Shown: positions 3,325 to 18,496 of the stretch, in pieces
Numbering within the stretch: the first letter of the stretch is position 1
How the letters are laid out: every line of letters begins with the position of its first letter
Assembly: GCA_016786615.1 (NCBI GenBank)
Contig: JAEUVX010000015.1
Location: 186,001 to 250,000, forward strand
Source of the DNA: Flavipsychrobacter sp.
Lineage (GTDB): Bacteria; Bacteroidota; Bacteroidia; Chitinophagales; Chitinophagaceae
Direction of reading: 5' to 3'
Length of the DNA stretch: 64,000 nucleotides
The notes under the pieces: model-generated
The model's input: the letters and a program-made list of their open reading frames with translations, nothing else
What the model was told of the DNA's origin: nothing
The model's database searches: none
Translations under genes and position numbers: made by a program

Positions 3325-3325
3325 G

Positions 3326-3904
3326 TTATTGTATTTTATTTTTAACAGCTTGCAAATTTTGTTTTTTTGCTGTATTCCTTAAAGAAATGGCAGTTTTTGT
3401 AAAATAATGATGTGCTTCTAAAAATTTAACCTGGAGTCTATTCCATTCATCTTCAGATGCGAGTATTTGCAAATTCAACAACTCTTCACAAAGCCTGTTT
3501 CCGATACTGAAGAAATCATCTCTGCCCAGATAGTCTAAATCTGCATCACAGATTATTTCGCCAAGCAGATCCGTTGGCGACTGTGGGATTTTTGTCGCCA
3601 TTATTATTTCGCAAATCTTATCTATTTGATGATTGCTATACTCATATTGAGGCAAGTATTGCCTTACAATTTCACAAGATTTAAGCTCATGTTCATTATT
3701 CCCAATCAAAAAACCTGCGTCGTGATATAATGCAGCTGTCAATAATAGCAGTAAATCCTCTCCTGCTACTCCTTCTTTTCCGGCTATAATCTTTGCTGCA
3801 TTATACACGTCGATAACGTGGTCAACATTATGATAAGACAACAATGTCGACAATTCTGTTTTAAGTTTATACAGAATAAAATTTTTAGAATTTTCAAATT
3901 GCAC
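3326..3904 (-). CDS. HD-domain phosphohydrolase-like protein
   Basis: Soluble protein of about 192 residues with an HD metal-binding pattern: a His in SYHNVDH near residue 25, the HD pair in YHDAGF (about 61-62) and a later Asp in CDADLDYLG. HD proteins hydrolyse phosphoester bonds, often of nucleotides; the substrate cannot be told. There is no ATG near the N terminus: the candidates are GTG at 3904 (used here) and TTG at 3916. It is the first gene of a two-gene unit with the YitT-like gene. Confidence 0.8.
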   Translation of the reverse strand: MQFENSKNFILYKLKTELSTLLSYHNVDHVIDVYNAAKIIAGKEGVAGEDLLLLLTAALYHDAGFLIGNNEHELKSCEIVRQYLPQYEYSNHQIDKICEIIMATKIPQSPTDLLGEIICDADLDYLGRDDFFSIGNRLCEELLNLQILASEDEWNRLQVKFLEAHHYFTKTAISLRNTAKKQNLQAVKNKIQ

Positions 3905-3916
3905 GGTAATAAGCAA

Positions 3917-4580
3917 TAATGGTTATGCCCCTAAAATACAGGTATTTCTTTTCATAATACAGTATATACAGCTAATAATTATCTGATTATTACTACAATT
4001 GGTTATTATGATGAACCTCCTATTTATCATCATCCAAATTGACTGCACCAAGTTAATGCGGGTAAATATTTTTTTATGGTGCATTTATATTTACATAAAG
4101 ATGGTTTTATCCGTTGTTATCAGGTTACTTTTTACTCCACTATCTTCTGAGTGACTCTCTGGCCAGTTCTATACATTACGCATTGTATACAATACAGTCT
4201 ATAATAGCATCTGCTACTATTTTTTCACCACTCAGACGTAGCATTGCTTTACAGCTACTTGTGCTATAATAGAAGAGGGTTTACCTTGCCTATATTTGAT
4301 AAAGTTTTCCGTAGGCTGACTTTCATTCACTTGTATACATTTTTTATTAAAATAACAATGGAAAAGCTATATAAAATCAAGACCCAATCGGTAAACTTTT
4401 TGCTAACTATTTACAATGTGTTACTTTAAAGAGCTCGTGAGAGAAAATAAATGGTAGGCTCTAAATTGCTATCCTGTAGAAAACGAACTCCTTTGCATAT
4501 ATACCATTAATAAAACTCGCAAATAGCCTTTAATGCAACTACTATATTGTTCGAAAGTTGTCCTTCTCTCTCCGCCAAAT
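3917..4580. other. Gene-poor intergenic stretch with inverted repeats
   Basis: About 660 bases without a credible gene. A 61-codon plus-strand frame at 4244-4429 has no family features and I do not accept it. The 12-base palindrome ATTGTATACAAT lies at 4182-4193. An 8-base inverted repeat (4146-4153 with 4229-4236) encloses it and a short stem (4205-4216) followed by six T residues. The region could hold promoters or a structured RNA, but nothing specific is recognisable. Confidence 0.4.
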
Positions 4581-4609
4581 AAAAAGAGCGTCATTACGAC
4601 GCTCTTTTT
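4581..4609 (-). terminator. Strong terminator after the PID-CTERM-like gene
   Basis: A 12-bp perfect stem (4581-4592 with 4598-4609, loop ATTAC) whose arms include five A and five T residues. It lies just beyond the stop of the small minus-strand gene and ends the long minus-strand run of genes. Confidence 0.85.
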
Positions 4610-4615
4610 ATTTAA

Positions 4616-4807
4616 TTACTTTTTCTTCAAATCTTTCAGCTTTTTAGCACCATAAGCAGCCCCTGCAATGACTAATGCACTAACACCACCATCCAAGGGG
4701 ACATCATCTACAACATCATCATCAAAACCAGGTCCCTGGGCATAGCTTGTCAAACACCACAGTAATATTATAAACGTATTGGCGGCAACTAATTTTATCT
4801 GTTTCAT
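4616..4807 (-). CDS. Small secreted protein with PID-CTERM-like tail
   Basis: Protein of 63 residues: an N-terminal signal peptide ending near SYAQ, a short acidic spacer (GPGFDDDVVDD), then PLDGG, a hydrophobic segment and a basic end (KKLKDLKKK). This tripartite arrangement matches the very small Bacteroidota proteins annotated as carrying a PID-CTERM sorting signal (Pro-Ile/Leu-Asp-Gly-Gly, membrane segment, Lys-rich tail), which I recall from family knowledge. There is almost no mature domain besides the signal, as is typical of this group. It is the last gene after the T9SS protein (32-base gap). Role unknown. Confidence 0.75.
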   Translation of the reverse strand: MKQIKLVAANTFIILLWCLTSYAQGPGFDDDVVDDVPLDGGVSALVIAGAAYGAKKLKDLKKK

Positions 4808-4839
4808 TTTTAAAGAGGATTGTTTTTAGCGTGACAGGA

Positions 4840-7356
4840 TTATTGTTTAATCAGTTTATGCGTTGTTACCTGATTGCCCTTGCGAACATTTACCATATAA
4901 ATGCCTGCGGGCATATTATGCATACGTATCACTACATTACCATTAATATTGTTTGCTTTTACTTCCGATACAATCATACCTACCATGTTTGTAACAACTA
5001 CTTTTAAAGCTTCATTCGCATCTTCATAATACAATGTCACATCACCGGTTGTCGGATTGGGGGCCAATTTTACTTTTAGCTGTTGTGATTTATTATTGAC
5101 TATACTGTTGGTTGGTTGGCCCTGCGTATTCAATTCAAACCGGTTTTTACCTTGTGATGCTGCATTTGTATCTACACTGAACCAATATTCATACCCGACT
5201 GTAATCTCTTCGTTTTTGCCGGTATAATTATCCTTCAAATACAGTTTGGTTCCTGCCGGCACATCAAAGTCTGTAGCTACTACTTTGTAATTCTTTTGAT
5301 AGGGTGTAGTAAACCCAAGAAGAATCGTTTCATTTTCAACATACGGACGGTTATCTATTGACAAAGCACTATCATCTTTACTATAGGTGTTGAAACTCAC
5401 TTCAGGATTAGGAAATTTTTGTGCATCGTCTGTTTCAGATACTGCCATAGCATTATCATCATAGTGCAGCTGCAACCTGTCCCAATAGGTGGTACTATCT
5501 TCAATGGTAAGTGTCACCCTGTTGGGGAAACTTGTTGTTTTAAACATTGTACTTACACCCGATGCCTTGTCTGCTTCTTCTATTGTTATGGTACCATTGC
5601 TGCTTATCTGAGTAACAAAAGCACCACATGTCGGAAGATTGAATGAAGATGAGCCATAACTATAGGTCGTATAACCACCTTTTGTTCCTTGCTGTGCACT
5701 CCATATATAAAAGTTTGAACCGATTCCAGCAGTTTTGCTGACAGCATCCATGTTCACTGGGCTGGCGAACGGATTACCAACCAGTGCATAGGTAGTGCCT
5801 GAACCTTTAGTAACACCTATTGATTGTGTACCCTGATTTACTGCCCCTGTCATATCCAGTGTGACAGCACTTGGAGTATATGTACCGGACGTTAACCCTT
5901 GACCGATTGCACCACGTACTAAAACACGTATCCCTTCATATTGGTCCCAACTTGAAGAAGATGCCGATGTAAAAGCTGTCCAGCCAATATCATTTGTTGT
6001 AGAGCCGTTTGCAGTGCTTACATCATACCAAAATGCAGACGGATTATTGGTTCCGGTTGTTGTAAAACCATTGGATGCACCACCACTGCCGGTAATATCT
6101 ATATCATCGGTAAGAATTGATAATGCCTGAGAACTTGTAAACGGATGTGCAAAAAAACGATATGCACGACGCCCCCCGGGTATATAACGTTGTTGAATAA
6201 TGTTTCCACTGATGCTACCTGCACTATTACCAATACGACCGGTATTTGTTGCATCTGAACTAAGTGTAAGCAATCCGCCGGTAGTGAGTGTAGCACCTGT
6301 GCTAACAGTTACTGTACCCGCAACTGATATAGCATTACCTGATAATGAACCTGACGATGCAAATGTGAATGTACCTGTACCGCTAAAACCATTACCATTA
6401 TTAGTAACGTTTCCGTTAATTGTAGCTGTCGCACCACTATTGATGGTAAGTGCTACCCCACTATTGATAGTTAGTGCCTTACAAGTGAAGCTACCCGGTG
6501 TTGTGCTGCTGGCTATTATCGCATCGATTGTAGAACTTGGAGCACCGGCACTCCATGTGGTACCATTCCAGGTGGTACTGCTGGTAACGCTAAAACTACA
6601 ACTTGATGGTAAGGTTAGTGTATTAGAATTAGATAAAGTCCAGTTAGCCGGGTCATTAATTGCACTTCGTAAAGCAGATAATGAAGATGCTGAAGCTCCT
6701 GTACAGTTATATTCACCATTATCATATTCGGTATAAGGTGTACTTGTTCCTCCTGCTAAAAATATTGCGTCTGTCCCGCTCGTGAGTACAGAAGGTTTTG
6801 TTGAGCGACTACTTGTAATAGTAAGGCAAGTGCCACAACCACCTATCCCGGAACTGGAAATCAAATCCCAATTAGTAGGGTCTGTAACAAAACTACCATT
6901 TTCAACATTTGCATGTATCCCTGTCAACAGATTGGCAGTATTGAACGTTGCTGAATTAAAAGCGAATATCTGGTCGCCGCCTGCAGACAAGATAAATGTG
7001 CCTGAAACACCTACACTGCCATTTGAAGCAGAACCACTTGTACCGGCATCTGCTATATCAACAGTTACTTCTGAAAATTGAGCCAATGAAGAACCACTAG
7101 TCCATGTTACAGTACCTTCGGCCGTTGCAGAAAAGTTGGAACCGTTATAACCCTGATCGGTAAAATAGATAGTAGTACCTGAAGTTATACCTCCACTTTT
7201 GAGAATAATAAAAGAGAAGTCATTCTTATTGTTAGTACCATCAAATGACCAATAACCTGTAAATGCAATGTCTCCAATACTAAGGGATGTCTGGCTGTAA
7301 CCATTGTAACACATCCCTAAAATGGCAATAAGCGTTAATAAGAGTATTCTTTTCAT
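4840..7356 (-). CDS. Large secreted protein with T9SS type A sorting domain
   Basis: Protein of 838 residues. Residues 1-22 form a signal peptide ending at GYSQ. The N-terminal part (about 25-250) has the pattern SIGDIAFTGY...FSFIIL...IYFTDQG seen in many Bacteroidota extracellular proteins. The middle is Ser/Thr/Gly-rich and beta-rich with a WNGTTWSAGAPS segment. The final 75 residues (LAPNPTTGDVTLYYED ... PAGIYMVNVRKG ... HKLIKQ) form a typical type IX secretion C-terminal sorting domain, so it is predicted to cross the outer membrane and be anchored or released. It follows the formyltransferase by 41 bases; co-transcription is possible. Ligand or enzymatic role unknown. Confidence 0.85.
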   Translation of the reverse strand: MKRILLLTLIAILGMCYNGYSQTSLSIGDIAFTGYWSFDGTNNKNDFSFIILKSGGITSGTTIYFTDQGYNGSNFSATAEGTVTWTSGSSLAQFSEVTVDIADAGTSGSASNGSVGVSGTFILSAGGDQIFAFNSATFNTANLLTGIHANVENGSFVTDPTNWDLISSSGIGGCGTCLTITSSRSTKPSVLTSGTDAIFLAGGTSTPYTEYDNGEYNCTGASASSLSALRSAINDPANWTLSNSNTLTLPSSCSFSVTSSTTWNGTTWSAGAPSSTIDAIIASSTTPGSFTCKALTINSGVALTINSGATATINGNVTNNGNGFSGTGTFTFASSGSLSGNAISVAGTVTVSTGATLTTGGLLTLSSDATNTGRIGNSAGSISGNIIQQRYIPGGRRAYRFFAHPFTSSQALSILTDDIDITGSGGASNGFTTTGTNNPSAFWYDVSTANGSTTNDIGWTAFTSASSSSWDQYEGIRVLVRGAIGQGLTSGTYTPSAVTLDMTGAVNQGTQSIGVTKGSGTTYALVGNPFASPVNMDAVSKTAGIGSNFYIWSAQQGTKGGYTTYSYGSSSFNLPTCGAFVTQISSNGTITIEEADKASGVSTMFKTTSFPNRVTLTIEDSTTYWDRLQLHYDDNAMAVSETDDAQKFPNPEVSFNTYSKDDSALSIDNRPYVENETILLGFTTPYQKNYKVVATDFDVPAGTKLYLKDNYTGKNEEITVGYEYWFSVDTNAASQGKNRFELNTQGQPTNSIVNNKSQQLKVKLAPNPTTGDVTLYYEDANEALKVVVTNMVGMIVSEVKANNINGNVVIRMHNMPAGIYMVNVRKGNQVTTHKLIKQ

Positions 7357-7397
7357 AAAATTTATTGTGTTTAAAACAGTTAAGGGTTAACTAATAT

Positions 7398-8315
7398 TTA
7401 GCTGAAACAAAGCCCTTTATTTAATCCGAATCGCAATAGTTGTACAGGCCTGATAAAGCCTGCAGCAGTGTAGACCATTGGGATTATTAATACTTTGTTG
7501 TTTTTACAGCAAACCGTCAATCCATCATTATCAATTTCAAGTATTGTCCCCGGTATTTGTTCGTGATTATTGTTATGCGCTACCGCATCAAGTATCCCAA
7601 TCATATTATTATTAACAGATGTAGCAGCACCATAGTTCCATGGATTGCAAGCATTTGCAAGGGCGATAATATCTTCTGCTTCCATCTCCTGCCAATTGAT
7701 TGAAACATCTTTATGACCGGGCTTTTGATAATAAACGCCATCTCTATCATCTTGTGGAAAAGCAGGTAGCGGTCTTCCGGAACGAATCATACTAATGAGT
7801 GTTTTTACCGCTTCTGCTCCAGCATAAGAAAGATTATTCATATGCATACCAAAACTATCACCGGGTTGTATTGGGACTGTCTGTTGTAATATTACCGGGC
7901 CTGTATCTATACCTGCGTCTGCATGATGCACTGTTATACCACCGGTTTTTTCTCTTTTTCTGATTTGTTCAAAAACAGGATTAACACCTCTGTAATAAGG
8001 CAATAACCCATAATGAAAATTGACAAACCCTAGTTTGGGCTTACAAAGTGCTGACTCGTGAATCTTATAAGGCCATGTCATCATCAACACTACATCCGGT
8101 GTAATATTATCAAGCCAGGTATTCATTTCATTGACAAAATCCTTATTCCCGAAAATTTTCAATTCGATACCAGTAGCCTCGGAAAAAGATGAAAGTATAC
8201 CACACAACTCATGATTGTCTGATATAGTAGCTACTGCCGTCAAGACACCACTCTGTGCCATGTATTGAATAGCTGGTAATGCCACATTGTTATTACATAT
8301 AACTATCGCTTTCAT
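7398..8315 (-). CDS. Formyltransferase-family protein (Fmt/ArnA fold)
   Basis: Protein of 305 residues with the formyltransferase fold. The three catalytic residues are in place: N99 and H101 (FVNFHYGLLPYYRG) and D137 (DAGIDTG), with the same N-x-H and H-to-D spacings as methionyl-tRNA formyltransferase. Such enzymes transfer a formyl group from 10-formyltetrahydrofolate to an amine. A C-terminal beta domain follows. The divergence from canonical Fmt and the location among collar-protein genes suggest a specialised acceptor, which is inference. I use ATG 8315; a TTG two codons upstream (8321) is also possible. It follows the binding-protein gene by 9 bases. Confidence 0.85.
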   Translation of the reverse strand: MKAIVICNNNVALPAIQYMAQSGVLTAVATISDNHELCGILSSFSEATGIELKIFGNKDFVNEMNTWLDNITPDVVLMMTWPYKIHESALCKPKLGFVNFHYGLLPYYRGVNPVFEQIRKREKTGGITVHHADAGIDTGPVILQQTVPIQPGDSFGMHMNNLSYAGAEAVKTLISMIRSGRPLPAFPQDDRDGVYYQKPGHKDVSINWQEMEAEDIIALANACNPWNYGAATSVNNNMIGILDAVAHNNNHEQIPGTILEIDNDGLTVCCKNNKVLIIPMVYTAAGFIRPVQLLRFGLNKGLCFS

Positions 8316-8324
8316 TATCAACTA

Positions 8325-9482
8325 TTATGTCGTACACAGGTAGGTATTTACCCATCTTGAATATGTTTCTGTAATTGGTTTTGATCTGTGAATTTTCCAT
8401 ACTTCTTGCCAATAAGGCACCTCTTCCCCAATCGCAAGCATTGAAAATCCATTAGCATCTTTTACAACTTCTGCTTTGTACAATGGCCCGGGGAAATAAT
8501 TTGTTTCAGGGTCATGCACAAGCTTACCTCTCGTACTTTGTATTTCAATACCAGAAAGACTTTCAGCAGCTTTACGACTATTAAATTTACTTACATTCAA
8601 TGCCTCAATTACTTTAATTGCAAATTGAGCAGCATCCCATGCTAAGGCAGAAAAACAATTACCTTCCCTACCTCTTTCTTCTAAGGCTTTTAAAAACATC
8701 CTGTTAGTATCGTTATCAAGCATTCTCGACCAAGGAACTACACCCTTAATGTTGACATTTGTAAACAGAACTGTACTAAGGAAACTTTCTTCAAGCAAAA
8801 AAGGTGACGAATAAAATTTCACCTTGTCAACAATGTTACTTTTCCCAAACTCTTCAAGAAATAGTTTCCCGGTTTCTATACTTAACTGTGCAAGTATTGC
8901 ATCAGGATGTTGTTGTTCTGCTGCAGCAACAATATGTTTGATATCAAACTCTTCATACTTAAACGGAGCTACATAATTATAACATATTGTACTGCCATCA
9001 GCAGTATATGTATCAACCATAGCATTGCAATTCAAGTACCCGCCATCGTAAAAACTTGTAGCGAATATTGCTTTCCGCGATCCTTCAGAAGCCGCGATAT
9101 GCCCTACCAGCCTGCTACCCGAAGCGGAGTCGAGAGTTAAATGAAAGCGCAATGGAGATGCAGCCCAATTTGTAGGTATTACCGCACCGGGCTCTATTAC
9201 TATCAATATTTTATTTGCAGCATTGCATAATGGTTCTATAGCTTCTGCTGCAGTATGATCGATATAAGCAACCAGTAAATCAGCATTCCCCTGTAGTAAT
9301 AATTTTTCAGCTGCCTTATATACATCATCCCCAACACCACCTATACCTACACTTTCAGCAATAACCGTTGCATCACTACCATAATGTGCAATGGCTGCCT
9401 TAAAACCTTCCGTGACATCAAATCCAATACCCGGATACACAGAAGACCTTGGAAATAATAATCCTATCGTTGTTTGTTTCAT
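8325..9482 (-). CDS. Type I substrate-binding-protein-like, no signal peptide
   Basis: Protein of 385 residues resembling branched-chain amino acid/amide-binding (Leu/Ile/Val-BP, AmiC-like) proteins: two alternating alpha/beta lobes, beginning directly with the first strand (TIGLLFPRSS). There is no signal peptide or lipobox, and no permease or ATPase gene nearby, so it probably acts in the cytoplasm as a sensor or carrier rather than in import. It lies between the collar genes (65-base gap with a hairpin) and the formyltransferase (9-base gap). The ligand cannot be deduced. Confidence 0.75.
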   Translation of the reverse strand: MKQTTIGLLFPRSSVYPGIGFDVTEGFKAAIAHYGSDATVIAESVGIGGVGDDVYKAAEKLLLQGNADLLVAYIDHTAAEAIEPLCNAANKILIVIEPGAVIPTNWAASPLRFHLTLDSASGSRLVGHIAASEGSRKAIFATSFYDGGYLNCNAMVDTYTADGSTICYNYVAPFKYEEFDIKHIVAAAEQQHPDAILAQLSIETGKLFLEEFGKSNIVDKVKFYSSPFLLEESFLSTVLFTNVNIKGVVPWSRMLDNDTNRMFLKALEERGREGNCFSALAWDAAQFAIKVIEALNVSKFNSRKAAESLSGIEIQSTRGKLVHDPETNYFPGPLYKAEVVKDANGFSMLAIGEEVPYWQEVWKIHRSKPITETYSRWVNTYLCTT

Positions 9483-9501
9483 TATATTATTGTGGAAGTG
9501 A

Positions 9502-9534
9502 AGAGAACAGATAATTAAAAATTACCTGTTCTCT
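9502..9534 (-). other. Intercistronic hairpin without T-run
   Basis: Arms 9502-9510 and 9526-9534 pair perfectly, and TAATT/AATTA inside extend the stem after one mismatch. On the minus strand no T-run follows, so it looks like a processing or partial-termination hairpin that could lower expression of the downstream binding-protein and formyltransferase genes relative to the collar genes. Confidence 0.5.
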
Positions 9535-9547
9535 GTATTTAAGTGTG

Positions 9548-10099
9548 TTAATTGCGAGAAGGGAATATACCTTCTGTACAAATGATATAGTTAAGTGCCA
9601 AAAATGGCTGCATATTATTTATAGGCTGACTGGCACCTGCAACACTCAGATTGGCAGTAGTCACCAGATTACCCATATACTGCCCTGCTGCGGGCGCATT
9701 ACTATAGTACTGCTGTCCGTTTGCAGGTATTGATGGGAAAGATGCCTCCGGATTATCGGTATCAGAGCTATTCCCATTAACAGGTATCTGAATATTCACT
9801 TGCGCGTAGTGATTATGTGCTGCTAAATTGGCAGTAGTCATCGTATTCTGCGTGGTTCCGTTTACTTCACCTAATTCCCAGTTTGATAACCCGGGTCCCT
9901 GACCTGTACCTACCGGCACCCTGCCGCGTAAATCCGGCAAAGCGAAGGTAACCTGCCCGTCTCCACCATAAGTGGTTCCGAGTAATGCATATAAAGCTGT
10001 ATTACTTGCTATAGACACTAATGATCCATCGCAATACGCCCATGATAATGGTGCAAAATTACCTGCGAATAAGGTAACCGTTGCTAAATATCCGTCCAT
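9548..10099 (-). CDS. Phage tail collar-domain protein (Mdp type), copy 3
   Basis: Protein of 183 residues of the microcystin-dependent-protein/tail-collar family. The N-terminal collar domain (about 1-75) has FAGNFAPLSWAYCDG, NTALYALLGTTYGGDG and TFALPDLRGRVPVG. The central part has LAAHNH, PVNGNSSDTDNPEA and the C terminus ends NYIICTEGIFPSRN. No signal peptide. In phages such domains form tail fibre or collar parts; chromosomal stand-alone copies are common in bacteria but their role is unclear. It is the last of three tandem paralogs in transcription order. Confidence 0.9.
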   Translation of the reverse strand: MDGYLATVTLFAGNFAPLSWAYCDGSLVSIASNTALYALLGTTYGGDGQVTFALPDLRGRVPVGTGQGPGLSNWELGEVNGTTQNTMTTANLAAHNHYAQVNIQIPVNGNSSDTDNPEASFPSIPANGQQYYSNAPAAGQYMGNLVTTANLSVAGASQPINNMQPFLALNYIICTEGIFPSRN

Positions 10100-10148
10100 A
10101 ATATTTTTATGTTTTAGAATGTTTTAAAAAAAATGTTTATGTTCATTA

Positions 10149-10691
10149 CTAATTCCTCGATGGGAAAATACCATACATACATATGATATAATTCATGCCA
10201 AGGCTTGGCTGTATATTATTCATAGGCACATTACTACCGGTAACACCAACTGTTGCTACTGTATGCAGTGGCCCCATATACTGACCGGAATTAGCATTAT
10301 TATAAATATTCGAAGTTGCTGTTCCGAAATATGCAGCTTCAGGGTTATCGGTAGTAGAATTATTGCCATTCACTTGCATTTTCGCAGTAACTACCGCAAC
10401 GTGATTATGTTGTGGCAAATTGCTGCTTAAAAGCGTATTGGTTTCTGTACCACTCATCTCGCCCTGAGTATAGTCACTTAAACCCGACCCCTGGCCCTGA
10501 CCGACTACTACGCGGCCACGCAGGTCTGGCAAACCAAAAGTCACCCTTCCATCGCCACCGTACATCGTACCCAATAATGAGAAAAGAGCTGTGTTATTTG
10601 CTATTGCAACTAACTGACCTGCACAATACTGCCAGTTTCTTGGTGCAAAGTTTCCTGCGAACATGGTCACACATGCCATATATCCTTCCAT
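10149..10691 (-). CDS. Phage tail collar-domain protein (Mdp type), copy 2
   Basis: Protein of 180 residues, paralogous over its whole length to its two neighbours: MEGYMACVTMFAGNFAPRNW start, YGGDGRVTFGLPDLRGRV core, QHNH, QVNGNNSTTDNPEAAYFG, and the identical FPSRN end. The cysteines in the YCAG and IICM segments are shared with copy 3. The gap to copy 3 is 49 bases. The variable part between about residues 95 and 160 differs most among the three copies. Confidence 0.9.
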   Translation of the reverse strand: MEGYMACVTMFAGNFAPRNWQYCAGQLVAIANNTALFSLLGTMYGGDGRVTFGLPDLRGRVVVGQGQGSGLSDYTQGEMSGTETNTLLSSNLPQHNHVAVVTAKMQVNGNNSTTDNPEAAYFGTATSNIYNNANSGQYMGPLHTVATVGVTGSNVPMNNIQPSLGMNYIICMYGIFPSRN

Positions 10692-10735
10692 AGTTATATT
10701 GTTTTATTTTTTTATAGTAATAGTTTTTATGACGA

Positions 10736-11284
10736 TTAATTTCTGGATGGGAATACCCCCTGAACACATATTATATAGTACAGGCTTAAATATGGTTGGA
10801 TATTATTAACAGGGAACCCTGAACCGGAAATACCTATCGTAGCATTAACATTCAAATTACCGGCGAATGTTCCGTTAGAGCTATCATTATATATATTAAC
10901 GCCGCCCTGTGAAATGGCTGGGTATGCAGCCTCTGGGCTGTCCGTGTCAAAAGCATTACCGTTTACCGGCACTTGCGATACGATATTGAGCGCATGTGTA
11001 TGTGCAGCCATTTGAGACATCGAGATAGTATTGGTTTCCGTTCCACTCATCTCTCCGAGGTCGTATACCGGCAAACCCGGTCCAGAACCGGCACCAATAG
11101 CAACACGCCCCCTAAGATCAGGCAAAGCAAATGTGGTACTTCCATTCCCGCCATAGGTAGTTCCTAATAACGAAAAAAGTGCAGTGTTTGATGCGATATT
11201 AATAATTTGTCCTTCACAGGACATCCACCACTTAGGTGCAAAATTAGCTGCCCAGGGAGTGATGTAAGCCATAGTTCCTTCCAT
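10736..11284 (-). CDS. Phage tail collar-domain protein (Mdp type), copy 1
   Basis: Protein of 182 residues, first of the three collar paralogs in transcription order. It has the same blocks: FAPKWWMSCEGQ, NTALFSLLGTTYGGNG, FALPDLRGRVAIG, AAHTHA, PVNGNAFDTDSPEAAYP and terminal FPSRN. It sits 137 bases downstream of the stem-loop at 11421-11446, so a promoter for the collar unit probably lies in 11285-11420, although I could not place one convincingly. Confidence 0.9.
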   Translation of the reverse strand: MEGTMAYITPWAANFAPKWWMSCEGQIINIASNTALFSLLGTTYGGNGSTTFALPDLRGRVAIGAGSGPGLPVYDLGEMSGTETNTISMSQMAAHTHALNIVSQVPVNGNAFDTDSPEAAYPAISQGGVNIYNDSSNGTFAGNLNVNATIGISGSGFPVNNIQPYLSLYYIICVQGVFPSRN

Positions 11285-11420
11285 AGTTTTTTGTTGTTTT
11301 AAATGGTTAAAGAATAGTGTATTATCTAAGTTATTGTTACGATGGGATTATACAATGTTTGAAAACCAACATTTGACAATTTATTAATATGGCTTTAAAA
11401 GTATAGATAAAAGCATTAAA

Positions 11421-11446
11421 AAAAACCAGTGTATACACTGGTTTTT
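11421..11446. terminator. Bidirectional terminator between oxygenase and collar units
   Basis: A perfect 26-base palindrome with AAAAACCAGTG and CACTGGTTTTT arms and flanking A/T runs. It follows the HEAGH gene and precedes the collar genes on the minus strand, dividing the cluster into two transcription units, or acting as an attenuator between them. Confidence 0.8.
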
Positions 11447-11476
11447 TTTAATGAAAAATTTCTTATTGTATAAATT

Positions 11477-11977
11477 TCAATAACGCAACCAACACTTCAT
11501 GCAGGGGAATACAACAGTATCGTCGCCAACATTACCACAACGTTCCTTTGTTAGTCCAAACCATTGCAGCAAACTGACACCAAAATATCTTCCGGCACTG
11601 AAATTTTCAATTATGTTTAATGAATCACCATGATAACCTGCATCATGAAAAACAACCTCCGGCTCAATTTCTAAATACTTTGCAGCAGCCCAGCTCCATG
11701 CAATAGCTGCCATTTCTGCTCCGCCTGCTTCCAGGTCTCCATTCACATCAGGGCTTGTAACATCTTGCCTGTGTTCAGGTAATAATACGGCAAGATGCCC
11801 TGCTTCATGCAGTAGGTCTCCGGGGCTGATAACTTTTTTCTTGTCATACACTATACATCCTTTGACAATATCAATGCCGGGTAAAAAACTATCGTGTTTC
11901 ACCTCACCTGCATTACACCTTAAGCCAATACTTTCAATAAACTTAGTTATAGTTTCCAGTTGGTGATTTGCTATCAT
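11477..11977 (-). CDS. HEAGH-motif protein, putative zinc metalloprotein
   Basis: Protein of 166 residues with an HExxH-type signature, HEAGH at residues 57-61 (LLHEAGHLAVL), and Glu residues about 25 further on (LEAGGAEMAAIAWSW) that could be the third zinc ligand. This resembles small M78-like or gluzincin peptidases, but the remainder is not recognised. C-terminal CMKCW gives two close cysteines. It starts 1 base after the stop of the beta-hydroxylase-like gene, so it is in a tight three-gene unit with the two oxygenases. Peptidase activity is an inference from the motif only. Confidence 0.65.
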   Translation of the reverse strand: MIANHQLETITKFIESIGLRCNAGEVKHDSFLPGIDIVKGCIVYDKKKVISPGDLLHEAGHLAVLLPEHRQDVTSPDVNGDLEAGGAEMAAIAWSWAAAKYLEIEPEVVFHDAGYHGDSLNIIENFSAGRYFGVSLLQWFGLTKERCGNVGDDTVVFPCMKCWLRY

Positions 11978-11978
11978 G

Positions 11979-12689
11979 TTATTGAATATTTAATAATGCT
12001 TCCATTTCTCTTGCCAATTGCAAAGCAGTAGGTGTACCCTGTATTTTCAACCCTTCTATAATCATCAACTGTTCATTGTGAGAAAACTTTTCTTGCTTAG
12101 GTATTCTTTTTATATCATCTGCGTTGTCAAAAATATTTTTCACCCATTCATTTACTATACAATCTATTACAAGGTGAATACGATCTGTCAACCCATTATT
12201 AGCAAGCCTATGCTTCAATTCAAAATTCATATACCAGCATTCTCCTTGTTGAGGATGCAATGGTTCTTCTTCTATAAAAAAATCAACCGATTCATTTGTA
12301 CAGATTGGGATGTGCACCCTTATCTCTCCTTCTTCATAACTAAGACCGGGGTCAGTATGTTCTTTCACAACAGCACCCGAACGAAGGTTCAGCAGACGAA
12401 CACTTGTCTTATCACATTGAAACGATGAAATTACTGACTTGATTACAGGACACACATCCAACAAAGGAGTGTCAGCAAATTCATTATTTGTAAACTGCTG
12501 TGCAAATGCCTGATGTACGCTGCCACCTACAGAACGGAGCGGTATTGCTTTCCACTCACCTGTATAATCTTGTGTATTATAATGAGACAGCCAGCTATCC
12601 TGTAATAAATACACCTCCTTCATCATTGCCTGCGCATCATACACGAAGGGTAGTTTTAAATATTTAATAATTGTGTTCACGGTTTGCAA
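11979..12689 (-). CDS. Aspartyl/asparaginyl beta-hydroxylase-like 2OG oxygenase
   Basis: Protein of 236 residues with the AspH-type jelly-roll: metal ligands H111 and D113 (KEHTDPG), RVHIPI strand, H160 (LKHRLANNG) and 2-oxoglutarate-binding R170 (DRIHLVIDC). The family hydroxylates Asp/Asn side chains in proteins or related small molecules using Fe(II), O2 and 2-oxoglutarate. There is no early ATG; TTG 12689 lies 4 bases after the stop of the PKHD gene and GTG 12680 is an alternative. The last 50 residues form an extra helical extension. Likely substrate unknown; the nearby collar proteins are candidates by context only. Confidence 0.85.
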   Translation of the reverse strand: MQTVNTIIKYLKLPFVYDAQAMMKEVYLLQDSWLSHYNTQDYTGEWKAIPLRSVGGSVHQAFAQQFTNNEFADTPLLDVCPVIKSVISSFQCDKTSVRLLNLRSGAVVKEHTDPGLSYEEGEIRVHIPICTNESVDFFIEEEPLHPQQGECWYMNFELKHRLANNGLTDRIHLVIDCIVNEWVKNIFDNADDIKRIPKQEKFSHNEQLMIIEGLKIQGTPTALQLAREMEALLNIQ

Positions 12690-12693
12690 TCAT

Positions 12694-13386
12694 TTATAAA
12701 TCTGTCCACATGCGCATCAGGTTGCTATACACTTGCAACAGCATCAAATTATCATTTGAGGTTAAATCTTTTGAGGCAACTGACTCTTGTATTGTCTTCA
12801 GTTGATATAACAATTCTCTTTTCTCAGTTTCTTTTACTAAAGACTGCATCCACGTAACGCATGCTACACGTTCTCCTTCAGTTACAGGATTTACACAATG
12901 CAGTTTAGTCGTCGGGTAAACGACTGCATCACCTTTATTCAATTTATAGTTAACAAAGCCCGAAGGAGTATGCACAACCAATTCCCCACCCTTATAGGTG
13001 TCCGGCTCAGAAAGGAAAACGGTTATACTCAAATCCACACGTATCGTATAATCAATCGTCATTACAGGGCTATCGGTATGCCACCCATACTCCATACCGT
13101 TATTATATTTACTAATAATGGGTGGTAAAATATTTTTAGGCATTACACCACTTTGTATTAATTGATTGGTTGCAATAGCTGTAAAAACTATTTGTTGCAA
13201 TTGTCGTTTATACGGATTTTCATCACGCGCTGCCTGCATGTTATTCTTAAGCTCTTTGGCAGCACCTGTGGCAGTATTTTTACCATCTTCGAAAGCTATA
13301 TGTTTCAGCAACAAGTCAACCTGTTGCAATTCGGGCACTGTCAATAATTGACGGATTTCGATGATGGAGGATGGTATGTTTATCAT
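12694..13386 (-). CDS. PKHD-type Fe(II)/2OG hydroxylase (PiuC-like)
   Basis: Protein of 230 residues of the prolyl 4-hydroxylase-like/PKHD family. The metal-binding H103 and D105 (GWHTDSP), a distal H163 (KLHCVNPV) and R173 (GERVACVTW) are all present, and EIRQLLTVPEL opens the fold as in PiuC/YbiX. Characterised relatives are tied to iron-related or peptide hydroxylation, but most have no known substrate. It is the first gene of the minus-strand run; its promoter should lie in 13387-13520. Confidence 0.9.
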   Translation of the reverse strand: MINIPSSIIEIRQLLTVPELQQVDLLLKHIAFEDGKNTATGAAKELKNNMQAARDENPYKRQLQQIVFTAIATNQLIQSGVMPKNILPPIISKYNNGMEYGWHTDSPVMTIDYTIRVDLSITVFLSEPDTYKGGELVVHTPSGFVNYKLNKGDAVVYPTTKLHCVNPVTEGERVACVTWMQSLVKETEKRELLYQLKTIQESVASKDLTSNDNLMLLQVYSNLMRMWTDL

Positions 13387-13524
13387 GATGTTTCATTAAT
13401 GGTGTGGTAAATATAATTATTATCTCTTGCAAAAAAACGATAGATGGTTAACAAAGAATCCTAGGAACACTGCAGTTCACCAGACAATATACCCTGTAAT
13501 TTCTTCTAATACCTCCAATAAAAA

Positions 13525-13548
13525 TCAGCAGGCTAAATAGCCTGCTGA
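13525..13548 (-). terminator. Terminator of the aromatic catabolic operon
   Basis: A perfect 10-bp stem (13525-13534 with 13539-13548, loop AAAT) followed on the minus strand by TTTTTATT. It lies 50 bases past the paaD stop. Confidence 0.85.
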
Positions 13549-13599
13549 TAAATATGCATGGAGTAAACGTTGTTTTACAATCGGATTATTGCAGCATCA

Positions 13600-14079
13600 T
13601 TAATGACACTTAAAGTATTCAAAAGGCTCTTTACATGTATTGCATTTGTACAATGCTTTGCACGCAGTTGCACCAAATCGGCTTATCAAATTTGTATCTG
13701 CCGAATCACAGTGCGGACAATGAACATGTTGTTCCGCCATAAACATATTGCCACAAGACGAGTGCATTGGAGGTGCAATACCATATTGTCGCATTTTTTC
13801 TTTCGCTGTATCATTCATCCAATCGGTAGTCCAGGCTGGACTATATACCATTGTTACTTTAACCGGGGAAATCCCCTTTTCCTGCAACAAGGCTTTTATA
13901 TCAGCTTCTATTATACTCATTGCCGGACAACCTGTATATGTCGGTGTAAGAATAACTTCATACCCACTATCCGATATGATTACATCCTGAAGCATGCCCA
14001 TTTCCTGTATGCTAACAACAGGTATCTCAGGGTCTGCAATTACCGATAAATAATCCAGCACCTCTTGTTTTGTATACAT
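13600..14079 (-). CDS. paaD: Phenylacetyl-CoA epoxidase subunit PaaD
   Basis: Protein of 159 residues: a DUF59/MIP18-type domain (DPEIPVVSIQEMGML, then TPTYTGCPAM) and a C-terminal zinc-ribbon (CPHC ... CNTC). This is the PaaD layout; PaaD is thought to help assemble the metal centre of the PaaABC(E) epoxidase. ATG 14079 leaves a 5-base gap to paaC; an ATG four codons upstream (14091) would overlap the paaC end. Fifth gene in the order paaA-B-C-D after hmgA and hpd. Confidence 0.93.
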   Translation of the reverse strand: MYTKQEVLDYLSVIADPEIPVVSIQEMGMLQDVIISDSGYEVILTPTYTGCPAMSIIEADIKALLQEKGISPVKVTMVYSPAWTTDWMNDTAKEKMRQYGIAPPMHSSCGNMFMAEQHVHCPHCDSADTNLISRFGATACKALYKCNTCKEPFEYFKCH

Positions 14080-14084
14080 ATGCC

Positions 14085-14843
14085 CTACCATTGCGCATCT
14101 GGATAAGCACGTTGCAAATATTGCATTTCACTTAGCAAATGCCCCAAATACTCGGTATGTATGCCTTGCCTGCTACCGGTTTGCATATATCCATCCTGCG
14201 GAATTTGCAATGCTCCATTATTAAACACATTAGCTATATATGCTTTCCATAGAGGGCGTATTTTATCCAAATCAATTGCGATACCCTCTGCAATCAATTT
14301 GCTGTCCACTTCATCCATCTCAAATAATTCGCCGCTAAACATCCACAAATCATCTATAGCTTTTTGTGTACGGTAATGACTTTCACCTGTACCATCACCA
14401 AGACGAATTACCCAATCTTCTGCATGCGCCAAATGATACTTCACTTCTTTCAGCGTTTTTGCTGCAATAGCAGCCAGCATCTCATCACTGCTTTTTTGCA
14501 TTTCAGTATAGTAGTACTTTTCAAATACTGAAATAAATAACTGTCTTACCATTGTTACTGCAAAATCACCATTAGGTTGCTCAACAAGCAAATTGTTATA
14601 ATACTGTCGCTCCGACCTTCGATAAGCCAGCATATCTTCGGTCCTGTTCAAGCCTTCTAATTCTCCTGCATATTTCAATAAGGCCTGAGACCGCCCAATC
14701 ATATCCAAAGCAAAGTTGGTCAGTGCCAAATCTTCCTCTATAAATGGTGCGTTGCTGCACCATTCTGAAAGTCGCTGAGATAAAATCAAAGCGTTATCGC
14801 CCAAACGCAACGTATATTTAAATAATGCTTCCTGCTTTGTCAT
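14085..14843 (-). CDS. paaC: Phenylacetyl-CoA epoxidase subunit PaaC
   Basis: Ferritin-like structural subunit of the ring-1,2-epoxidase, 252 residues. Typical blocks are LRLGDNALILSQRLSEW, EEDLALTNFALDMIGRSQ and KEVKYHLAHAEDWVIRLGDG. PaaC pairs with PaaA to form the catalytic core that epoxidises phenylacetyl-CoA. ATG 14843 lies directly after the paaB stop; an in-frame TTG at 14849 would give a 4-base overlap. Length is normal for the family. Confidence 0.95.
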   Translation of the reverse strand: MTKQEALFKYTLRLGDNALILSQRLSEWCSNAPFIEEDLALTNFALDMIGRSQALLKYAGELEGLNRTEDMLAYRRSERQYYNNLLVEQPNGDFAVTMVRQLFISVFEKYYYTEMQKSSDEMLAAIAAKTLKEVKYHLAHAEDWVIRLGDGTGESHYRTQKAIDDLWMFSGELFEMDEVDSKLIAEGIAIDLDKIRPLWKAYIANVFNNGALQIPQDGYMQTGSRQGIHTEYLGHLLSEMQYLQRAYPDAQW

Positions 14844-14845
14844 AA

Positions 14846-15136
14846 TCAAATGTTTTTTGCGCCTTCAGGCATTGTATAAAATGTCGGCATCCGATAAATT
14901 TTATCATTCGAAGGATCGAATAACATATCTACATCTTCCGGGCTGGAAGCAACTATTTCGCTAGTTGGCACTACCCAGATGCTTGTGCCTTCACCACGAC
15001 GGGAATATGTATCGCGTGCATTCTGTAATGCCATTTTCTTGTCTGATGCGTGGATACTACCCTGATGTATAAAATTAGCACCTGTACGTGCCTGCATAAA
15101 TACTTCCCATGAATCCAGTTGTGTGTCTGTTGACAT
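14846..15136 (-). CDS. paaB: Phenylacetyl-CoA epoxidase subunit PaaB
   Basis: Protein of 96 residues with the family features WEVFMQARTGANFIHQGSIHA and ALQNARDTYSRRGEG...IWVVP. PaaB is a small subunit bridging the PaaAC heterodimers. The gap from paaA is 8 bases; gene order paaA-paaB-paaC matches characterised operons. Confidence 0.95.
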   Translation of the reverse strand: MSTDTQLDSWEVFMQARTGANFIHQGSIHASDKKMALQNARDTYSRRGEGTSIWVVPTSEIVASSPEDVDMLFDPSNDKIYRMPTFYTMPEGAKNI

Positions 15137-15144
15137 ATACCTTA

Positions 15145-16113
15145 TTAATTTAGATTAATAGATTGTTGTTCGTTTTTATTCTTATAGGCTTCAGCTGCCT
15201 CACGCACCCATGCACCTTCAGTATGCACACGTATATGGTGCTCCAGACGCTGCTTGTTACATGGCCCATCTCCGCGAATTACCCGATTGAATTCGTCCCA
15301 GTTTATCTCCCCATAATCGTAGCAGCCCTTCTGTTCATTCCACTTCAAATCAGGATCAGGTACAGTAAGCCCAATAACCTCCGCCTGCTGCACTGTTTTA
15401 TCTATGAACTTCTGCCTCAATTCGTCGTTGGTATGACGCTTAATCTTCCATCTGAATGCATCTGCAGAATGCGGTGAGTCTGTATCATGAGGGCCAAACA
15501 TCATGAGTGAAGGCCACCACCATCTATTCATTGCATCTTGTGCCATTTCACGTTGTTCAGCAGTGCCTTTCATCATTTGTGCCATAATCTCATACCCCTG
15601 GCGCTGGTGAAAACTCTCTTCCTTGCATATACGCACCATAGCCCTGCTATACGGAGCATAAGAAGTGCGCTGTAACGATACCTGATTTACAATAGCTGCT
15701 CCATCTACCAGCCAACCGATAGCTCCTATATCAGCCCATGTTAGCGAAGGGTAATTAAATATGTTTGAATACTTTGCCTTTCCTGTATGCAATTGTTCAA
15801 TCATTTCTTTCCGGCTGATACCCAGTGTTTCTGCGGCACTGTATAAATACAACCCATGCCCACCTTCATCCTGTATTTTTGCCAGTAAAATTTGTTTAGC
15901 TCGTAAACTCGGGGCACGTGTCACCCAATTCCCTTCAGGCTGCATTCCTATTACTTCAGAATGTGCATGTTGAGACATTTGGCGTACCAAGTGTTTCCTG
16001 TAGGCTTCCGGCATCCAGTCTCTTGGTTCTACCGATTCACCCGCTTGTACTTTTTCTTCAAACTTTGCCAAAAGTGCTTCGTCTTTTGACAACTTATCTT
16101 GAATACTATCCAT
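15145..16113 (-). CDS. paaA: Phenylacetyl-CoA epoxidase catalytic subunit PaaA
   Basis: Catalytic subunit of 322 residues with the di-iron ferritin-like ligands visible in [13 protein letters not shown] and [12 protein letters not shown], plus the conserved [11 protein letters not shown]-like segment ([14 protein letters not shown]). It inserts oxygen into the aromatic ring of phenylacetyl-CoA, the committed step of aerobic phenylacetate degradation. The reductase PaaE is not in the operon here. It follows hpd by 25 bases. Confidence 0.95.
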
Positions 16114-16138
16114 TATAAAAGGTTTGTATTGTTTAATG

Positions 16139-17296
16139 TTATAGTGTACCTCTTCTAGCCTGTTCAGCTTCTATTGATTCGAACAGTGCTTTAAAATTTC
16201 CCTTACCAAAAGACTTCGCTCCTTTACGCTGTATAATTTCAAAGAACAGCGTTGGCCTGTCCTCAACCGGCTTCGTAAAAATTTGCAGCAGGTATCCCTC
16301 TTCATCGCGATCTACCATAATACCCAAGCTCTTTAAGACTGCCATATCTTCTGCAATTTCACCAACACGCCCAGTAACAGTATCATAATAATCTCCGGGC
16401 ACATGCAAAAACTCTACGCCATGTTTACGCATTTCAGATATGGTGTGAACGATGTCATCTGTTGCTACTGCAATATGCTGACAACCGGGGCCTTCATAAA
16501 AATCGAGGTATTCTTCTATCTGAGACTTTTTCAAACCATTGGCAGGTTCGTTAATCGGGAATTTTATGCGTCCGTTACCATTTGTCATCACCTTACTCAT
16601 CAGCGCTGTGTATTGAGTAGAGATGTCTTTATCGTCAAATGTTACAAGATTCGCAAAACCCATAACATTAGCATAAAACTCAGCCCATTTGTTCATCCCA
16701 CCCAATTCAACATTACCTACCATATGATCTATGTATTTAAGACCAATTGATGGTGGATTGTATTCAGATTTCCATTCTATATAGCCGGGCAGGAAAATAC
16801 CTTTATAGTTTTTACGTTCTATAAAAATGTGTACGGTATCTCCATAAGTATGTATACCCGCTTTTACAATTTCACCATGTTCATCTTCCTCTGTTGTCGG
16901 TTCGAAATATGGCTTAGCACCTCGTTTAGTAGTTTCTTCAAATGCCTGGCGGGCATCATCTACCCACAGTGCAATTACTTTAATTCCATCGCCATGCTTT
17001 TTAATATGCTCAGATATAAGGTTATCAGATTTCAACGGTGTTGTTAGCACCAACCTTATTTTATCCTGCTGCAACACATAAGATACCCTGTCACGCAATC
17101 CTGTTTCCAAACCGGCATAAGCAAGCGACTGGAAACCAAATGCGGTTTTATAAAAATGTGCTGCCTGCTTCGCATTACCTACATATAGCTCCACATAATC
17201 GGTACCGTTAATCGGCAAAAAGTCCTGAGCTTTATCAAATATCTTTTCAAGCCCGTAGTTATAGTTTGTTACATCTTTTAATGTTGTGTTTCCCAT
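16139..17296 (-). CDS. hpd: 4-hydroxyphenylpyruvate dioxygenase
   Basis: Protein of 385 residues with two vicinal-oxygen-chelate (glyoxalase-like) domains. The iron ligands are recognisable as His in YIDHMVGNV, His in [11 protein letters not shown] and Glu in [10 protein letters not shown]. It converts 4-hydroxyphenylpyruvate to homogentisate, which the preceding gene product cleaves. Length is normal for the family. Gap to hmgA is 36 bases. Confidence 0.96.
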
Positions 17297-17332: not shown

Positions 17333-18496
17333 TTATGCTTCCTCTGTAAGCCATGACTTATAGTAGTCTTTTACATCTATCTTCATTGCTTCTTCTGTTA
17401 TCATCATTGGTGCAAACGGATCAATCATCACTGCCAGCTCCTGTGTTTCTTTTTGCCCGATACTCCTTTCTATAGCCCCAGGATGTGGACCATGTGGGAT
17501 ACCGCCCGGGTGCAATGTCAATTGCCCTTTCTTAATATTATTACGGCTCATGAAATCACCATCTACATAGTACAGAATTTCATCAGAGTCTATATTGCTA
17601 TGATGATATGGCGCAGGAATCGCATCGGGATGATAATCATACAATCGAGGCACGAATGAACAAACTACGAAGCCTGCACTCTCGAATGATTGATGAATTG
17701 GCGGAGGCATGTGTATACGGCCTGTCAACGGCTCAAAATTGAAGATGGAGAATGTGTATGGATAATGATAGCCATCCCAGCCCACTACATCAAATGGGTG
17801 ATACAGATACACATACGGAAATATGGTTCCTTTCTTTTTAATCAGTATGTCAAACTCACCTTTTTCATCTATTGTCTGCAGGTTTTGCGGACGTTTTATG
17901 TCCCGTTCGCAAAACGGAGAATGCTCCTGTAATTGGCCAAATTCATTGCGGTATCTTTTAGGTGTAAATACAGGGCTGAAAGATTCTACAATCAACAAAC
18001 GGTTGTCCTCTGTATCAAAATTGATTTTATAAACCGTACCCCTTGGTATCAATATATAATCTCCGTATTTGAACGGCAATTGACCATACATGGTATGAAC
18101 TATGCCGCTACCTTTATGCACAAACAATAATTCATCAGCATCAGCATTTTTAAAGAAATACGGTGTGGAGGCTGTAGGTGCAGCAAGTGCTATGTGTAAT
18201 GAATTATTTACAAATAATACTTTACGGCTTTCCAGATAATCTTTATTCGGCTTGATGTCAAACCCGGAGAAGCTCATCGCATTCAAGCTATTTTCAACAG
18301 CAATTTCCGGTTTCACCGAATATGGCTTTCCTTTTTGCTTTACACACGTTGGCGGATGCAGGTGATATACTAAAGATGATAAACTACTAAACCCCTGTGT
18401 ACCGACTAACTCTTCCTGGTACAGTTTCCCTTGAGGGTTTTTGAATACTACGTGACGTTTATCGGGTATATGTCCTAAAGAATGATAAAATGGCAT
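17333..18496 (-). CDS. hmgA: Homogentisate 1,2-dioxygenase
   Basis: Cupin-fold dioxygenase of 387 residues. The active-site region includes MPPPIHQSFE, SDEILYYVDGDF and HPGGIPHGPHPGAIE, containing the His and Glu iron ligands. It opens the homogentisate ring to maleylacetoacetate. It is the first gene of the hmgA-hpd-paaABCD operon, downstream of a promoter-like sequence. The genes for maleylacetoacetate isomerase and fumarylacetoacetase are not in this window. Confidence 0.95.
   Translation of the reverse strand: MPFYHSLGHIPDKRHVVFKNPQGKLYQEELVGTQGFSSLSSLVYHLHPPTCVKQKGKPYSVKPEIAVENSLNAMSFSGFDIKPNKDYLESRKVLFVNNSLHIALAAPTASTPYFFKNADADELLFVHKGSGIVHTMYGQLPFKYGDYILIPRGTVYKINFDTEDNRLLIVESFSPVFTPKRYRNEFGQLQEHSPFCERDIKRPQNLQTIDEKGEFDILIKKKGTIFPYVYLYHPFDVVGWDGYHYPYTFSIFNFEPLTGRIHMPPPIHQSFESAGFVVCSFVPRLYDYHPDAIPAPYHHSNIDSDEILYYVDGDFMSRNNIKKGQLTLHPGGIPHGPHPGAIERSIGQKETQELAVMIDPFAPMMITEEAMKIDVKDYYKSWLTEEA

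Follow-up and report, generated by a model that had tools for sequence, protein, structure and literature searches.

The short tail fibre protein gp12 of phage T4 is a homotrimer, and it shares with the tip of the long tail fibre protein gp37 a collar domain that carries an HxH metal motif. The same domain and motif are found in three consecutive minus-strand genes of a 64,000-nucleotide stretch of Flavipsychrobacter sp. DNA (assembly GCA_016786615.1, contig JAEUVX010000015.1, positions 186,001 to 250,000; 'the window', in which all unlabelled coordinates are counted), and the profile of these collar proteins has PDB matches to gp12 and to a long tail fibre. The gp37 tip holds iron through its HxH motif, according to an excerpt of one report (PMC11705849). 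Like gp12, gp37 is a phage homotrimer, whereas the window's collar proteins are stand-alone chromosomal proteins of about 180 residues that come in trios. Tail-fibre tips also sit among phage structural genes, but the window's collars do not, judged by a PHROGs scan of ten proteins (2446–14088). The virophage DSLV2 likewise has three consecutive PF07484 genes, whose gp37-tip-like products are reported to co-purify as a heterotrimer (PMC12724248, 2025); that system, however, is viral and proposed to sit on the capsid, and the excerpted part of the report mentions no acyltransferase, substrate-binding protein or surface-protein partner.

Other parts of the locus have described counterparts as well. 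Methionyl-tRNA formyltransferase, ArnA and the sugar N-formyltransferases share a two-domain architecture and a conserved Asn-His-Asp set with the formyltransferase (FMT) encoded beside the window's collars. SprB-type adhesins of the type IX secretion system (T9SS) have PorP/SprF partners, as do some collar loci in which a big CHU_C-signal protein is followed by PorP_SprF; the window's surface protein differs in having a type A Por_Secre_tail signal and no PorP/SprF gene beside it. Bacterial collar-type proteins presumably share the COG4675 name 'microcystin-dependent protein' with RhiB of the Rhizobium leguminosarum rhiABC operon, a likeness of name. Among the matches listed from the open-access literature, with subscription papers and preprints outside the scope, we found no description of an operon like the one reported here. 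We consider it about evenly balanced whether this chromosomal operon encodes an extracellular recognition protein resembling a tail-fibre tip, with acylated subunits, that works with a giant surface protein.

Conserved linkage of collar, binding-protein and formyltransferase genes

Eight consecutive minus-strand genes lie between 7398 and 13386, with coordinates and families that Pfam and NCBIfam searches confirmed as given in an earlier note on this DNA. In order of transcription they encode a PKHD-type Fe(II)/2-oxoglutarate (2OG) dioxygenase (12694–13386; NF003974, 1.1e-69, above cut-off), an AspH-type (Asp/Asn beta-hydroxylase) protein (11979–12689; PF05118 (Asp_Arg_Hydrox), 7e-15), a putative HExxH-type metalloprotein, HEAGH (11477–11977), three collar proteins, a signal-less protein resembling periplasmic substrate-binding proteins (SBP; 8325–9482; PF13458 (Peripla_BP_6), 1.9e-30) and FMT (7398–8315; PF00551 and PF02911, Formyl_trans_N and Formyl_trans_C). 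The earlier list was incomplete, since it overlooked a ninth, core gene for a large T9SS-exported surface protein (4840–7356), which follows FMT on the same strand.

Conservation was assessed in a family sample of 147 genomes of the window's family, from which 40 regions were read and joined with the window into a 41-locus family set, and in 211 collar loci. Removal of four same-record duplicates left 207 loci with 210 collar clusters for the main counts; the duplicates are still inside the independent-pair test, the lysine ratios, the hypergeometric values and the 41-locus counts, and with them the earlier counts were 64 clusters with FMT, 25 with GNAT and 125 with neither, and 89 of 165 for a downstream large gene. 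Loci were selected for a collar match, which biases forward frequencies but leaves the reverse tests free of that bias. The 80 phylum regions were hand-picked among the matches listed, open reading frames (ORFs) came from a simple script rather than a gene finder, and signal peptides were judged by eye throughout.

Collar genes occur in 49 of the 147 family genomes, often three in a row about 540–650 bp apart, and in 99 of 395 phylum genomes; the window's genome has none beyond those of the window. Among the family regions the commonest order is three collars, SBP, FMT and a large T9SS protein. Within 5 kb of a collar gene at the 41 family loci we counted SBP 28 times, FMT 22, GNAT acetyltransferase 4, AspH 9, HEAGH 5 and PKHD 2. 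In the reverse tests, no family SBP match (E <= 1e-15) was farther than 8 kb from a collar gene (29 of 29), and for 27 the distance was about 2.2 kb or less. Strong family FMT matches (E <= 1e-40) had a collar gene within 4 kb in 23 of 24 cases, the single exception scoring 147 bits and the other strong matches at least 309. Every SBP-bearing genome also has collars (28/28; hypergeometric 3.8e-17, relatedness ignored). For HEAGH, 7 of 17 matches in the family sample fall within 10 kb of a collar, and 15 of 16 HEAGH-bearing family genomes have collars (1.6e-7, relatedness again ignored). The eight-gene linkage is not chance. We conclude from the 5-kb counts and the reverse tests that SBP and FMT belong to the core of the system and that the oxygenases and HEAGH are accessory; we count the large surface protein as core too. 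SBP and FMT are thus almost confined to collar neighbourhoods in the family sample, which supports the earlier proposal of a chromosomal, non-phage system. Histidine kinase and response regulator genes stand beside the collar block at four loci (L167 and L170, annotated; L077 and L143, by eye) and are possible regulators.

A trio of non-interchangeable collar paralogues

The window's collar genes lie at 10736–11284 (PF07484, 1.9e-24), 10149–10691 (8.8e-25) and 9548–10099 (4e-25); all three products exceed the Pfam cut-off and carry HxH, which in collar 3 is H95/H97. At gaps of up to 110 bp, a limit fixed after the gaps had been seen, the 207 loci contain 91 trios, 28 pairs and 106 singles and nothing larger. 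Raising the limit to 700 bp gives 85 trios, 27 pairs and 96 singles plus two long arrays, of 12 (L103) and 18 genes (L073), both of which split into threes. The L073 array (4175–15393) consists of six tandem trios followed by one formyltransferase. Its first, second and third genes, six of each, fall into clades of their own, as do those of three of the four L103 trios, and this separation indicates that the trio was copied whole, as a unit. The L073 array is possibly a specificity repertoire.

Position within the trio is also conserved between loci. On a tree of 61 trios that includes the window's, the position labels require 50 changes, against a mean of 93.6 when shuffled (minimum 80 in 500). 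A second tree, of 22 trios that we chose ourselves, mainly of the GNAT type and without the window, from Pseudomonadota, Deinococcus, Paenibacillus, Hydrogenedentes and Bacteroidota among others, resolves three clades of 17, 17 and 16 members (supports 82/92, 69/62 and 83/77), none of which holds two genes from the same trio; the other genes lie outside these clades. Exactly three collar places were found in 34 of 40 plasmid records among the matches listed (68 matched; ten were opened, one of these being without gene annotation). By block counts, position test and clade test alike, the trio consists of three consecutive paralogues that are not interchangeable. Of the 414 collar proteins scored, 404 contain HxH, scoring here and for lysine below being limited to those with a recognisable W/F/Y..C motif in an ORF of 150–260 residues. 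The retention of three distinct subunits as a set across phyla points to a 1:1:1 complex, and we think it probable that the paralogues form such a heterotrimer (this and the later gradings of trimer, site and acylation are judgements, not computed values).

A large secreted partner

The 838-residue surface protein begins 41 bases beyond FMT, so that the collar-led unit runs past that gene, and it ends in a T9SS sorting domain (Por_Secre_tail, 4.8e-11; PF18962 and TIGR04183, both above cut-off). The first same-strand gene of at least 150 residues after the collar/SBP/FMT/GNAT block encodes at least 700 residues at 86 of 161 scorable places in the 207 loci, compared with 98 of 1292 background ORFs. 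Large Bacteroidota neighbours that we scanned, one of them an ORF cut by the end of its locus, contain Ig, MBG, PKD or HYR repeats, and most of them have a Por_Secre_tail or CHU_C signal; a PorP/SprF-type gene lies just past the big protein in ten loci, and on a Rhizobium plasmid the collar neighbour is an Ig-domain autotransporter.

Near its start the window's protein carries an N-terminal (NT) domain (6586–7296) without a Pfam match. In 121 collar loci this domain, of about 220 residues, occurs in 30 ORFs, each of which shares the strand of the collars and lies one to five genes away from one. It is predicted to be a beta fold (predicted local distance difference test, pLDDT, 85), and the best E-value of its model against the PDB was 0.1. 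A second NT-domain protein is encoded in the same genome outside the window (G000:C2:29675-30424). One locus labelled Lysobacterales (L116) was dropped as a cross-phylum case, the start of its NT protein being nearly identical to that of an Aequorivita locus (L129), which makes contamination likely. At L049 (3467–7642) a short extra FMT part (129 residues) and a surface-protein start (99 residues) lie between the full-length genes, which looks like a partial tandem duplication.

Exchangeable acyltransferases and the collar N-terminus

FMT retains N100, H102 and D138 in 15 of 15 sequences; we take these to be the catalytic Asn-His-Asp of N10-formyl-tetrahydrofolate-dependent formyltransferases. 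It is unlike the tRNA enzyme in lying far below the cut-off of the methionyl-tRNA formyltransferase model (TIGR00460; 100.8 bits, cut-off 201.5), in being tied to collar genes and in being additional to another match in the genome that exceeds that cut-off (269.8 bits; the aligned region contains one in-frame TAG).

Outside FMT clusters, the ACYLTRANSFERASE slot can be occupied by a GNAT acetyltransferase in FMT's place. In Deinococcus the order is three collars, SBP and GNAT, and a Bacteroidota locus (L220) has AspH, HEAGH, three collars, SBP and GNAT, the window's plan with the enzyme exchanged. Ruegeria sp. TM1040 is also of the GNAT type, whereas Taibaiella lutea (L083) and Flavobacterium panacis (L093) have the FMT type. 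Across the 210 collar clusters, with a range of 2.5 kb, 62 have FMT, 25 have GNAT and none has both. Four of five strong GNAT matches in the family sample lie within about 5.5 kb of collars and the fifth in a genome without a collar match; a sixth, weak match lies away from collars.

The exchange of enzymes is accompanied by a change at the collar N-terminus, with start codons set by rule as the nearest to 19.5 residues before the W/F/Y..C motif. The second residue is Asp or Glu in 139 of 172 classified FMT-linked collars and Ser, Ala, Gly or Thr in 17, compared with 7 and 58 of 65 GNAT-linked collars. The initiator Met is usually retained before Asp or Glu and removed before Ser or Ala, so FMT and GNAT would meet different N-termini. 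Collars are also poor in lysine, so the N-terminus is often among very few amines; the translation of the window's collar 3 has no lysine at all, which leaves the N-terminus as its sole amine. The GNAT profile resembles protein N-terminal acetyltransferases, but also polyamine acetyltransferases.

The swap of enzymes and the N-terminus pattern give indirect support to the earlier suggestion that collar proteins are substrates of the neighbouring enzymes, which is plausible. Covalent acylation of a collar has, as we judge it from the sequences, somewhat less than an even chance, and acylation specifically at the collar N-terminus is a more doubtful proposal. A formyltransferase acting post-translationally on protein N-termini would, to our knowledge, be a new enzyme activity.

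Some loci of this kind have further neighbours. In Azospirillum (L164, 1–14537) a collar trio and GNAT lie amid a lasso-peptide B2 protein, a PqqD-type protein, asparagine synthetase B and 2OG oxygenases. In L153 (11560–11946; DUF6916) and L142 (9038–9454) the collar and GNAT genes are followed by one for a small protein that has a Tat-like start. Related proteins with repeated Trp motifs and no signal peptide stand between collar trio and GNAT in L163 (8120–9337) and L166 (8059–9543), of which the L166 protein gave only sub-threshold FG-GAP and tectonin matches.

Binding protein and accessory enzymes

By fold, SBP is a relative of ABC substrate-binding proteins of solved structure and, at a weaker level, of AmiC. 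It departs from the transporter type in having neither a signal peptide nor, among the neighbours given to the family scans, a permease or ATPase gene; its translation begins directly at the first strand motif, in agreement with the earlier description of it as signal-less. HEAGH matched nothing in Pfam or NCBIfam, but its residues H57, E58, H61, E88 and H111 are invariant in 14 sequences. Its structure model (pLDDT 76) found nothing significant in the PDB, the top two hits being the small metallopeptidases selecase and abylysin (E 0.45 and 0.88).

Proposed mechanism and alternatives

On these grounds we propose that the three collar paralogues would assemble, one each, into a trimer round a metal bound through the HxH motifs. 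FMT here, and GNAT elsewhere, would be the dedicated cytoplasmic N-acyltransferase that modifies an amine of the system; the target would most likely be a collar subunit and possibly its N-terminus. SBP may assist the acylation step or export. The finished trimer, with the T9SS surface protein encoded downstream, would serve as an adhesin or recognition device, to which the two 2OG oxygenases and HEAGH might add optional modifications. In its boldest form, which we regard as unlikely, the proposal is of a widespread and undescribed surface system in which trimer subunits nearly free of lysine have their N-termini capped, by FMT on Met before Asp/Glu or by GNAT on exposed Ser/Ala, and are displayed with few or no free amines together with a giant secreted repeat protein.

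Several observations weigh against this proposal. A Met-Asp/Glu start also prevails among collars of clusters with neither enzyme (92 of 138, with Ser/Ala/Gly/Thr in 26); since this start is the default of such clusters, only the GNAT group departs from it. The correlation between N-terminus and acyltransferase is not phylogenetically independent, there being two supported independent pairs only, and we did not retain independence as established; moreover, a Flavobacterium-type FMT group starts Met-Ser. Lysine relative to local background is 0.18 in the FMT and GNAT groups and 0.25 in clusters with neither enzyme, a depletion nearly as strong, and we therefore rejected it as a specific mark of acylated collars. 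Neither acyltransferase lies within 2.5 kb at 123 of the 210 clusters, and many collars are single genes. The earlier note had held that the linkage would be coincidental if collars mostly occurred without these enzymes, and here the outcome is mixed: the 123 clusters and the accessory standing of the oxygenases count on one side, the reverse linkage of SBP and FMT on the other. The NT domain is not exclusive to collar loci (12 of 40 family matches lie near collars). Finally, a signal peptide is absent from most collar proteins, those of the window among them, and the export of such collars is the largest gap in the proposal; in Rhizobium, RhiA of the rhi operon is reported to be cytoplasmic and has served as a marker of that compartment (PMC2275737).

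The alternative that fares best, though we still think it rather improbable, is that a small molecule or amino-acid derivative, carrying a formyl or acetyl group and sometimes a hydroxyl, is made or modified by the enzymes. SBP would bind this compound and the collar trimer would recognise or carry it, with no covalent modification of collars. SBP is indeed a ligand-binding fold with the relatives named above, AspH weakly matches a model for nonproteinogenic amino-acid hydroxylases, and the Azospirillum collar cluster adjoins lasso-peptide and 2OG genes. Set against this, no peptide synthase or ligase was recognised among the families present in at least 3 of the 41 family loci (some families being unassigned), the oxygenases are accessory, and the single amine of the window's collar 3 would suit an acyltransferase that acts on protein.

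An improbable second alternative is that collars act in the cytoplasm, in storage, metal binding or sensing, and that the surface protein is co-regulated with them and not physically linked. The signal-less collars and SBP of the window would fit it, as would the abundance and cytoplasmic location described for RhiA of rhiABC, an operon whose rhiB is listed under COG4675 (PMC6969944). However, some collar relatives, beside large secreted proteins, have Sec-like signals with a matching predicted mature start, the SBPs of Deinococcus and Acidovorax have Tat-like starts, and the collar block itself has a large secreted neighbour. A collar-domain protein was also detected in the exoproteome of Ruegeria pomeroyi grown with Synechococcus, as one excerpt reports (PMC4949626), and COG4675 proteins are listed from soil metaproteomes in another (PMC5579227). 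We judge an extracellular recognition role for the collars slightly more likely than not.

It is very improbable that the locus is what remains of a phage, a tailocin or a contractile injection system. The collar domain does match phage tail families, and FMT and PKHD match auxiliary phage families in PHROGs, where the protein at 3326–3916 matches a phosphohydrolase. But the PHROGs scan of ten proteins, one collar among them, detected no capsid, sheath, tube, baseplate, lysis or integrase family, in keeping with the absence of phage structural, lysis and integration genes noted earlier. Phage records with a relative of collar 3 mostly have one place each (372 places in 333 records), as opposed to the trios here, and the SBP profile found no relative in viral contigs (one short pattern only). 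An anti-phage defence system was also discarded as a candidate, PADLOC giving only a generic 2OG model, for PKHD, among eight proteins. That the genes are neighbours by coincidence has practically no probability left: the absence of oxygenases and HEAGH from most collar clusters would favour it, but the reverse linkage already refutes it for SBP and FMT.

Layout of the locus

The earlier division into two transcription units is plausible, with the correction that the second is longer than claimed and includes the surface-protein gene. A strong terminator-like hairpin of 18 pairs with a T tail lies on the minus strand at 11414–11453, between HEAGH and collar 1, and another, of 11 pairs, at 13524–13549 upstream of the PKHD gene. 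The region has 10 terminator-like sites, with 6.4 expected (s.d. 2.5), and promoter-like sites are at chance level (33, with 31.6 expected). The FMT start is more likely the ATG at 8315 than the TTG at 8321. Upstream of PKHD, at 13600–17296, are genes for PaaD, PaaC, PaaB and PaaA (phenylacetyl-CoA epoxidase subunits) and 4-hydroxyphenylpyruvate dioxygenase, all above NCBIfam cut-offs; the epoxidase genes are not part of the cluster. Beside the dioxygenase gene, at 17333–18496, is a homogentisate 1,2-dioxygenase-like protein, perhaps a divergent homogentisate dioxygenase (64.5 bits, hmgA cut-off 510.75).

Discussion

Collar proteins, annotated as 'tail fiber protein' or 'microcystin-dependent protein', are common in bacterial genomes and have no settled function. 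The gene set recurs across many unrelated bacteria. That collars form a conserved unit of three, accompanied by a dedicated acyltransferase and by a giant secreted partner, makes this nuisance annotation a testable system, and our model predicts a specific protein modification that would be easily measured. The conserved unit also suggests that the fold of the tail-fibre tip may be used by bacteria as a recognition device of their own.

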